Shown here: positions 56,137-57,951 of the stretch, piece by piece
Layout: each line of letters begins with the position of its first letter
Position numbering within the stretch: position 1 is the stretch's first letter
From: Nitrospina sp. LS_NOB
GTDB lineage: Bacteria > Nitrospinota > Nitrospinia > Nitrospinales > VA-1
Reading direction: 5' to 3'
DNA: 64,000 nucleotides
Assembly (NCBI GenBank): GCA_001542995.1
Contig: LFLA01000021.1
Location: forward strand, 186,001-250,000
Position numbers and translations under genes: made by a program
Notes under the pieces: generated by a model
The model's database searches: none
What the model saw: only the letters and a program-made list of their open reading frames with translations
What the model was told of the DNA's origin: nothing

Positions 56137-56799
56137 ATGAAGTCTCATCCTCTTCGATTTATAAAAATCGCCTTGTGTCTCTTCCTGTTGCCTTCCCTGG
56201 CTTTTGCTGGGGAACCCTACAAAGGCTCTCTGGAAAAAGCACGGAGTCTGGATAAAGAAGAGTTTTTTGAAGATGCCGCCAGATACTGGCAAAAAACCCT
56301 TGACGAGAATCCTCCACCAAACATCCTCCTTTACGCCAAGCTCAAACTCACCAACACCTACTCACGTCTGGGGCAATTGGACAAAGCCGTCGAGACATCC
56401 AGATCGCTTACCAAGTCCAATCCCAGCCACTACGACTCCTGGTTTCATTTTGCCAATTCCCTTGCGGCCTTAAAACAATATTCCCCGGCCGCCGAAGCCT
56501 TCAAGAAAACAACCACGTTAAATCCCGAAGAAGGACTGGGCATGGTGGGACTGGCCTTTGCATATTTTGGGGACCAGAAACCGGATTCCGCCATCGAAGA
56601 GTTAAAAAAAGCCATGAAAATTTTCAAGGCTAATAGAAATATTTCCTGGTACCGGGACTGCCGTCTCGCCATCAATCAAATAAAGGGGTTCGCCCGCTTC
56701 CCTCCCAAATTTGCCGATCTCTGGCTGGGAAAAAACCTCAAAAGAGTTCAGGACACTTATATGAACGCAGTTCTCGATCTGGACAGCCTGCTAAACTAG
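56137..56799 (+). CDS. secreted TPR protein
   Basis: A 220-residue protein with a signal peptide (about 1-24, cleavage near FAGEP) and TPR-type helical repeats (SLDKEEFFEDAARYWQKTL, TYSRLGQLDKAVETSRSL, HYDSWFHFANSLAALKQY and GMVGLAFAYFGDQKPDSAI). It is probably a periplasmic scaffold or part of envelope assembly. It starts nine bases after glnD and is likely cotranscribed with it. No further function can be inferred. Confidence 0.85.
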   Translation: MKSHPLRFIKIALCLFLLPSLAFAGEPYKGSLEKARSLDKEEFFEDAARYWQKTLDENPPPNILLYAKLKLTNTYSRLGQLDKAVETSRSLTKSNPSHYDSWFHFANSLAALKQYSPAAEAFKKTTTLNPEEGLGMVGLAFAYFGDQKPDSAIEELKKAMKIFKANRNISWYRDCRLAINQIKGFARFPPKFADLWLGKNLKRVQDTYMNAVLDLDSLLN

Positions 56800-56914
56800 T
56801 GCCCGCCGTTATCGAACCATCCACTAATCTTTTATCCCTCCCGCGCCAAACCTATATAAAATCCATTCCTATAACATTAAAAATTTTTAATGCCGGATTA
56901 ATACTTTTTTAATA

Positions 56915-57060
56915 CTAATTTTATAGAATACAGGCAGTACTTTTCTCCTCCTTTCGGGGGGAGCGGATTCGGTTCCATGACCAAGTCTTTCCCCCGTCTC
57001 CTCCACACGAGGGCAACAGGCGGTTCTCCAAACCCGCCTGTTGCCCTCGTGTTTTTTTTA
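56915..57060 (+). ncRNA. candidate leader RNA or small RNA with strong terminator
   Basis: A TATAGAAT (56921-56928) that could be a -10 element is followed by a segment with CTCCTCCTTTC-GGGGGGAG and a TTTCCCCCGTCTCC repeat of the same pairing, then a strong terminator (57006-57059). No open frame fits. It looks like an attenuator leader or a stand-alone small RNA upstream of the guanidino-enzyme gene. I do not recognise a riboswitch class; a guanidine riboswitch consensus was not found by eye. Promoter assignment is tentative. Confidence 0.45.
57006..57059 (+). terminator. strong Rho-independent terminator
   Basis: CACGAGGGCAACAGGCGG pairs with CCGCCTGTTGCCCTCGTG (18 pairs) around TTCTCCAAAC, followed by at least eight T. 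It lies 80 bp upstream of the guanidino-enzyme gene, so it either ends the candidate small RNA or controls that gene. Confidence 0.93.
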
Positions 57061-57138
57061 GTTCCCATGACATTGAAACCCAAGCTGACAGGAAAAGCAT
57101 CTAAGTAGATACAAGATATTCTTGTTCGGAGGTGAGTA

Positions 57139-57951
57139 ATGAACTCCCAATTTCTCATGTGCCCCCCGGATTATTTTGGGGTGGAGTACAGTATCAATCC
57201 CTGGATGACCCATAATTTGGGATGCGTTGACACTGACAATGCCAAAAAACAGTGGCACAGTCTATTTGAAACCCTGTCAAAATTCGCTAACATTGAATTG
57301 CTGAAACCCCGGCCACATGTCCCCGACATGGTTTTTACCGCCAATGCCGGTCTGGTTAGAAAGGAACTATTCATTCCCAGCCATTTTCAACATTTGGAAC
57401 GGCGCCAGGAGGAAACCCATTTCAGAAAATGGTTTCTCAGGATGGGTTACCGTCTTAAAGATTTGGCTGACTCTGTCCGTTTTGAAGGGGAGGGGGATGC
57501 CCTGTTTCAACCCGGGAGTAACCTGTTGTGGATGGGATACGGGTTTCGAACCGATCCGCAGTCACAGGACCTGCTCAAAAAATTATTTTCTCTGCGTATC
57601 ATAACGTTACAACTTGTTGACCCACGGTTTTATCATTTGGACACCTGCTTTTGTCCGCTTTCAGGAGGCCGGGTCATGTATTATCCAAAAGCGTTCAGCG
57701 TCGACTCCCTCCAATCAATCAAAGAAAATATTCCCGCCCAAAACCGAATCGAAATAAGCGAAGAGGATGCCATTCATTTCGCATGCAATGCCATCACAAT
57801 AGAAAACAACCTGATTTTGAATCATGCCAGCCCCACCCTGATAGACAGACTGCAGTCATTGGGCTATCGGGTTATCCTCAAACCCGTGGGCGAATTTTTA
57901 AAAGCCGGCGGTGGCAATAAATGCCTCGCGCTCTCTTTAACCAGCAATTAA
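57139..57951 (+). CDS. guanidino-modifying (amidinotransferase/DDAH-like) enzyme
   Basis: A 270-residue member of the arginine deiminase / dimethylarginine dimethylaminohydrolase / amidinotransferase superfamily. Placed residues: MCPPDYF opening (7-13), FTANAG (about 66-71), FEGEGDALF (about 115-123) with the acidic guanidine-binding pair, HLDTCFCPL (about 175-183) with the catalytic His, and AGGGNKCLAL (about 255-264) with the nucleophilic Cys. It hydrolyses or transfers guanidino groups of arginine-like substrates; the substrate is unknown. The upstream strong terminator suggests conditional expression. Ribosome site GGAGGTGA. Confidence 0.87.
   Translation: MNSQFLMCPPDYFGVEYSINPWMTHNLGCVDTDNAKKQWHSLFETLSKFANIELLKPRPHVPDMVFTANAGLVRKELFIPSHFQHLERRQEETHFRKWFLRMGYRLKDLADSVRFEGEGDALFQPGSNLLWMGYGFRTDPQSQDLLKKLFSLRIITLQLVDPRFYHLDTCFCPLSGGRVMYYPKAFSVDSLQSIKENIPAQNRIEISEEDAIHFACNAITIENNLILNHASPTLIDRLQSLGYRVILKPVGEFLKAGGGNKCLALSLTSN

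Follow-up and report, generated by a model that had tools for sequence, protein, structure and literature searches.

The window, that is, the whole 64,000-nt stretch of DNA analysed here, comes from Nitrospina sp. LS_NOB, and Nitrospina relatives are major marine nitrite oxidisers. A region of its forward strand contains two protein-coding genes with a compact set of regulatory features between them:

56137–56799, + strand: upstream gene for a TPR protein (PF07719, E 1.1e-11), a conserved neighbour by synteny
56877–56912, + strand: operator of four TTAA boxes at a 10–11-bp period, in place of a −35 element (three sites in the own genome; consensus of 70 sites)
56877–56880, 56887–56890, 56898–56901 and 56909–56912, + strand: the single TTAA boxes, read from the sequence
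56922–56929, + strand: −10 element TATAGAAT, its last six bases 12–17 nt after the last TTAA (sequence and 70-site profile)
56936–57059, + strand: predicted small RNA of about 124 nt (promoter profile, fold and matches to covariance model R1)
56938–56954, + strand: unpaired 5' seed UACUUUUCUCCUCCUUU with the anti-Shine-Dalgarno (anti-SD) motif CUCCUCC at 56945–56951 (alignment and fold)
56955–56996, + strand: hairpin 1 (covariation)
56996–57004, + strand: second unpaired anti-SD stretch GUCUCCUCC, with CUCCUCC at 56998–57004 (fold)
57005–57059, + strand: intrinsic terminator with a 19-bp stem, a 10-nt loop and a T-run at 57053–57059 (fold energy)
57139–57951, + strand: downstream gene for an arginine dihydrolase/dimethylargininase-like enzyme (PF19420, E 1.7e-11, above cut-off), outside the RNA unit

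Judged from sequence comparison, the segment 56877–57060 is almost certainly a free-standing small RNA gene that is conserved in Nitrospinaceae and related families. As expected of a gene for a trans-acting small RNA, it has its own promoter and intrinsic terminator, both conserved apart from the flanking genes. The RNA start was placed near 56936 from a CA about 7 nt after the −10 element, and the RNA end from the T-run. The transcript would be roughly 75–125 nt long (predicted at about 124 nt here and about 75 nt in distant relatives), with its 5' end a few bases before ACUUUUCUCC. An earlier note on this DNA had drawn the unit from 56915 to 57138; the conserved part begins further upstream, with the operator at 56877, and ends at about 57060 rather than at the start codon.

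The terminator that had been described as an 18-bp stem with a T-run is real, except that its stem counts 19 bp. Its reported position, 80 bp before the start codon, agrees with a T-run ending 79 bases before the ATG at 57139. The two arms (57005–57023 and 57034–57052) fold at −39.8 kcal/mol with a z-score of −10.0, and none of 200 shuffled sequences folded as well. Structure was likewise recovered for the stretch leading up to it, with 131 nt folding at −63.4 (z −7.65), mostly owing to the terminator. On its own, the 5' part with the hairpin at 56955–56996 reaches a z-score of just −1.6 in the window sequence; this hairpin is backed by covariation, a comparison with relatives that had been named beforehand as a check. 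In a plain alignment, both partners vary in 7 of its 10 pairs (15 cells versus 4.0 in shuffles) and 92.9% are paired, compared with 49–74% when slid. A 44-row alignment fitted to the model is biased towards the structure, includes a second, partial match in L021 and has no row for L240; it gave 9 of 10 pairs changing on both sides (57 cells versus 14.6 in shuffles) and 92.5% paired versus 49–69% when slid. A small coding ORF was rejected as a candidate: the AUG in the loop of hairpin 1 is not kept, and by inspection the loops of relatives read CCAUGA, CCAAGG or CCACGA.

The unpaired 5' stretch of the RNA reads UACUUUUCUCCUCCUU and has a nearly invariant core, and in the own genus a second unpaired stretch, UCUCCUCC, lies between the two hairpins. 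In alignment A1 (23 homologs) the seed bases T6, T7, T8, C9, C12, T13, T16 and T17 are invariant, the bases between them are mostly 90% conserved, and the hairpin sequence varies while the 5' tract stays. The proposal that C/T-rich segments (the CUCCUCC copies at 56945–56951 and 56998–57004) pair alternatively with a G-rich one, a G-run being the potential partner, holds in principle but is not what the fold predicts, as the ensemble leaves the C/T tracts unpaired with a probability of 0.93–0.99 (0.93–0.94 for the first CUCCUCC and 0.94–0.99 for the second).

A 259-base stretch of the locus matches 18 of 60 genomes, the own genome included, at E ≤ 6.5e-10; at E ≤ 1 the tally rises to 50 of 60, most of it chance. 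Among same-genus relatives, the aligned part usually ends at the terminator (query about 1–178). Covariance model R1 matched 44 of 77 genomes of the phylum at E ≤ 0.01. Because coding matches elsewhere score 20–32 bits with R1, we restricted the count to E ≤ 1.4e-5, which leaves 37 of the 77 genomes plus two weaker ones that bear the operator (G035 and G038; loci L183 and L186). R1 scores of 20–32 bits, some of which belong to coding matches outside Nitrospinota, mean nothing alone and were accepted solely together with operator or synteny. Six weak matches (L184, L187, L189, L190, L191 and L192) were rejected since the operator is absent; those in G029:C17 (at a contig edge), G070, G008:C39 and G011:C71 and the second matches of G016 and G021 stood outside the operator check. 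With R1, the RNA was not found in 2 of 16 same-genus genomes, G005 (97% complete) and G014 (74%), and neither the 12 genomes of family f2, where one weak match was rejected, nor the rest of the class gave a convincing RNA. A pattern scan of genome contigs for the operator end plus the seed returned 111 stretches, 80 of which were scored with R1. Among contigs outside L142–L172 whose titles were compared, those carrying the RNA are labelled Nitrospina, Nitrospinae, Nitrospinaceae or Nitrospinota, apart from one (L138) labelled Nitrospirae. Most of the stretches L062–L172 are from Bacteroidota and lie antisense to one conserved coding region resembling the seed, which we read as rho by eye; the other non-family stretches look like chance.

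The architecture of the RNA differs along the order. In distant genera and families (L024, L028, L174, L178, L179, L180 and L186) the seed is followed by a hairpin and then by a T-run, so that this hairpin is itself the terminator and the minimal RNA consists of one seed and one terminator hairpin. Most members of the own genus and nearer relatives have hairpin 1 without a T-run, then another CUCCUCC (or UCCUCC) and a further hairpin, the terminator; the second motif is present in most same-genus homologs, L014 being one without it. Six genomes carry a second RNA copy elsewhere (L173, L181, L182, L183, L185 and L240); this copy keeps the operator, and its seed differs slightly, reading UACUUUCUCCUCC. 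At L181 and L182 it diverges from an adjoining gene that reads, by inspection, as an FKBP-type isomerase.

At nearly all loci the RNA lies on the glnD side, after the TPR gene; the TPR gene was not found in L186, and L009 is cut by a contig end. The unit is on the same strand as the TPR gene, and its predicted start is 137 bases after the TPR stop codon, as would suit a 3' end and terminator of the TPR transcript. This origin, rather than a small RNA, is highly improbable, since a conserved operator and −10 element precede the seed at fixed spacing. The operator–RNA unit also occurs away from the TPR gene, at the second-copy loci listed above, and with TPR undetected in L186. The same conserved promoter, lying between the TPR gene and the RNA, meets the concern that the terminator might be a feature of the upstream gene alone.

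The earlier note had also put forward a riboswitch or transcription attenuator of the guanidino-enzyme gene, for which arginine, agmatine or guanidine would be the ligand. The enzyme gene does follow 79 bases past the terminator here and is next to the RNA at 13 of 38 RNA loci, including distant families, and the C/T and G segments could pair alternatively. A riboswitch or attenuator is expected to be constantly linked to the gene it regulates, however, and at 23 of the 38 loci the next gene is orn and no enzyme gene adjoins (L016 and L178 could not be called). The promoter, the RNA and the glnD-side synteny all recur where the enzyme gene is absent, and we reject the leader reading because such a leader would not be kept without its gene. 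Further points against it are the second RNA copies, which carry the same operator in six genomes, the conservation that usually ends at the terminator, and a conserved core that is an unpaired anti-SD tract and not a pocket. In Rfam searches, only three tRNAs reached gathering scores in the whole window, and a permissive search of the region returned ten sub-threshold matches and no riboswitch, guanidine and arginine classes included. Moreover, separate promoter-like elements stand between the terminator and the enzyme gene: ATCTAA lies 35–49 nt before the start of this gene in 9 of the 13 loci (here within 57061–57138), and by inspection three of the remaining four have a TATAAT-like stretch. 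The leader reading is thus hardly credible, and it was the other option raised at the outset, an independent small RNA, that promoter conservation, covariation and distribution bore out. The enzyme itself (57139–57951) scores best with arginine dihydrolase (ArgZ-type) models, all below their cut-offs (NF052232: 320.7 bits, cut-off 450), so that its substrate may be arginine and not dimethylarginine.

The promoter ties the small RNA to other genes. Operator and seed occur with at most three mismatches at all 44 RNA loci examined, the seed core lying 26–29 nt after the operator. The strict operator has three sites in the whole own genome (G000), compared with none for a reversed-pattern control, and these sites precede the RNA, an HtrA/DegP-type protease (TIGR02037: 420 bits, cut-off 416) and an 82-aa TusA-like protein with a sub-threshold match to TusA. 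Other operator-linked regulon positions are L193 259–1407 and L194 1622–1870, the operator of the RNA being that at window positions 56877–56912. Over 70 operator sites, the −10 profile at +12 to +17 is T78 A71 T50 A57 A40 T78. Across 77 genomes the operator has matches in 64, mostly 2–6 per genome versus mostly 0 for controls, and none in families f5–f9. Behind the fetched operator sites are 68 distinct ORFs, counted on a subset of sites with the next ORF taken by a crude rule and with a palindromic site able to count on both strands. HtrA/DegP-type proteases are the commonest (16), followed by TusA-like proteins (14), cytochromes c (5), a 66-aa protein of no known family (4) and another secreted protein (3); RNA loci account for others, and operator sites also precede XRE-type and MoxR-like genes. 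These matches make the four-TTAA operator the mark of a predicted small regulon that spans the order and is missing from the class's other families. Direct repeats in place of a −35 element resemble class II activation of the PhoB/OmpR type, and the activator is probably a response regulator of the OmpR/PhoB type.

The CCUCCUU sequence is the anti-SD core of 16S rRNA. The seed contains CCUCCUU and is complementary to strong Shine-Dalgarno (SD) sites, and anti-SD base pairing is, on the sequence evidence, the probable action of the RNA. Hosts of Hfq-dependent small RNAs encode Hfq; it was found in none of 41 genomes, and in 5 of 14 control genomes. The presence of the 16S core and the lack of detectable Hfq would also suit an RNA that mimics the 3' tail of 16S rRNA and sequesters a ribosomal or other RNA-binding protein, or acts globally on translation, instead of acting on particular mRNAs. 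So would the finding that sites of long complementarity to the seeds do not exceed chance in the own genome (24 + 21 versus 29 + 20 in the control); outside the RNA, the single site with one mismatch lies in a coding sequence, by inspection apparently that of LepA. We nevertheless consider a mimic unlikely, as the near-invariant stretch reaches 5' of the anti-SD motif (UUUUCU), which a pure mimic would not need, and strong GGAGGAGA sites are few, which favours selectivity.

The closest counterparts of this RNA are anti-SD RNAs of other phyla. An excerpt of PMC10746234 describes ar14/NfeR1 (RF02344), the "cuckoo" anti-SD RNAs of rhizobia, as Hfq-independent, about 123 nt long, and with pyrimidine anti-SD motifs in unpaired regions and variable stems; in length, in unpaired anti-SD motifs and in Hfq not being found, the Nitrospinota RNA is similar. 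It differs in that CCUCCUCCC, the motif of each of the three ar14 hairpins, has no match here, there are two hairpins, the seed is the 5' end, and phylum and promoter are others; its ar14 score of 20.8 bits is far below the gathering cut-off of 58.8. Yfr1 of cyanobacteria, according to the part of PMC2190773 used here, is a short conserved RNA with an ultraconserved unpaired CUCCUC-type motif beside stem-loops and a terminator, and such a motif beside hairpin and terminator is found in the Nitrospinota RNA too. Here, however, the motif is at the 5' end and not just between hairpins, ACUCCUCACAC of the unpaired centre of Yfr1 has no match with up to two mismatches, and there is no Rfam match to Yfr1. 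The best sub-threshold Rfam match by bits, ftsZ-DE (RF02985), shares a hairpin and a terminator, but its 24.3 bits (cut-off 72.2) come mainly from the terminator stem; ar7 reached 12.8 (cut-off 60). As the defining motifs of ar14 and Yfr1 are absent and the ar14 score fails, we set the RNA apart as a new family: the sequence family, the promoter and the phylum are new, and the anti-SD principle is familiar.

Taking these lines together, we regard it as probable that the locus encodes an Hfq-independent trans-acting small RNA that masks SD sequences, expressed from a protease-linked promoter. An activator, probably of the OmpR/PhoB type, would bind the four TTAA boxes that replace the −35 element and switch on the RNA along with the gene for the HtrA/DegP-type protease and a few further genes. 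Pairing of the 5' UACUUUUCUCCUCCUU and, in the own genus, UCUCCUCC with SD sequences would then keep ribosomes from binding, with no need for Hfq. An unusually strong GGAGGAGA site would mark the likely targets, chief among them an outer-membrane porin and a small lipoprotein, so that the RNA would reduce the supply of envelope proteins at the same time as the protease removes misfolded ones. The RNA may be the repressing side of a regulon for envelope-type stress. What the sequences show directly is conservation, the promoter link, covariation in the hairpin, the RNA's independence from the downstream gene, computed accessibility of the motifs and no match to Hfq; that the RNA is transcribed, which class the activator belongs to, how the RNA pairs, what it targets and which stress induces it are inferred. 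The σE-dependent small RNAs RybB, MicA and MicL belong to an envelope-stress regulon that raises protease and, via small RNAs, lowers porin and lipoprotein synthesis. The regulon logic proposed here is alike (protease up, porin and lipoprotein down); in contrast to those RNAs, Hfq was not found, a TTAA-repeat activator site stands in place of a σE promoter, and the targets are candidates. If correct, the explanation would be a further independent instance of anti-SD small RNAs emerging in the absence of Hfq, and envelope stress would have converged on a small RNA once more. A record-level literature search found no paper on small RNAs of Nitrospina; the outcome for Nitrospina relatives is a concrete small RNA family with a defined operator and a few candidate targets, and a false riboswitch lead is removed.

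Candidate targets were chosen by their SD motif. The pattern GGAGGAGA-N1..9-ATG has 7 sites in the own genome and 7 in the reversed control; across 16 genus genomes, GGAGGAGA-N-ATG has at least 182 sites versus at least 76 control sites. Four of the seven own-genome sites precede sizeable or plausible genes, namely those for a porin-like protein (PF13372, above cut-off; SD GGAGGAGAC), a 54-aa lipoprotein, ftsA (PF02491) and one other. Using the better of the two seeds, predicted duplexes with these four candidates reach −18 to −20 kcal/mol, whereas 58 crudely called start sites of the window have a median of −7.5, two of them reaching −14 or better and one −19.4. As the candidates were selected by motif, the strong duplexes are circular as evidence, and strong SD sequences could simply mark highly expressed genes, as expected of any highly expressed porin.

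The outer-membrane porin and the small lipoprotein are the leading but unproven candidates, as predicted from their start regions. That envelope proteins are the main targets and envelope stress the trigger is possible, although we would not call it probable. Somewhat less likely still, the RNA may be an anti-SD RNA with non-envelope targets, e.g., in cell division or metabolism, in a regulon that is not an envelope-stress response: ftsA is among the genes with GGAGGAGA, and the operator also precedes cytochrome c-like, XRE-type and MoxR-like genes. Against this, HtrA/DegP-type genes are the commonest behind the fetched operator sites, and two of the four plausible own-genome genes encode an outer-membrane protein and a lipoprotein. 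We tentatively propose the full scenario, between these two in likelihood: in Nitrospinota, apparently without Hfq, a TTAA activator would drive HtrA together with an anti-SD-tailed RNA that silences porin and lipoprotein, and this RNA would have passed from a one- to a two-motif and -hairpin form within the order and been duplicated in some genera.

The lipoprotein occurs in 9 of 25 genomes, with GGAGGAGAAAATG in G000, G003, G007, G012 and G015 and GGAGGAAAATG in G008 and G009; no comparable start was recovered in G004 and G013. Among the 11 same-genus genomes in which the porin start can be read, 10 share one identical start region, AACTTGGAGGAGACAAGC-ATG; left out of this count are L331 and L332 (second matches in G039), L324 (start missing) and all rows from other families. 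The exception, G005, is also one of the two same-genus genomes without an RNA match, which is one coincidence and not a test. The porin retains GGAGGAGG in family f2, for which the search gave no convincing RNA. By inspection (L305, about 1490–1516; L311–L330), a small conserved hairpin of the form CUUG...CAAG presents the porin SD in its loop; it reads ACUUGGAGGAGACAAGC, and ACUUGGAGGAGGUAAGC in other families.
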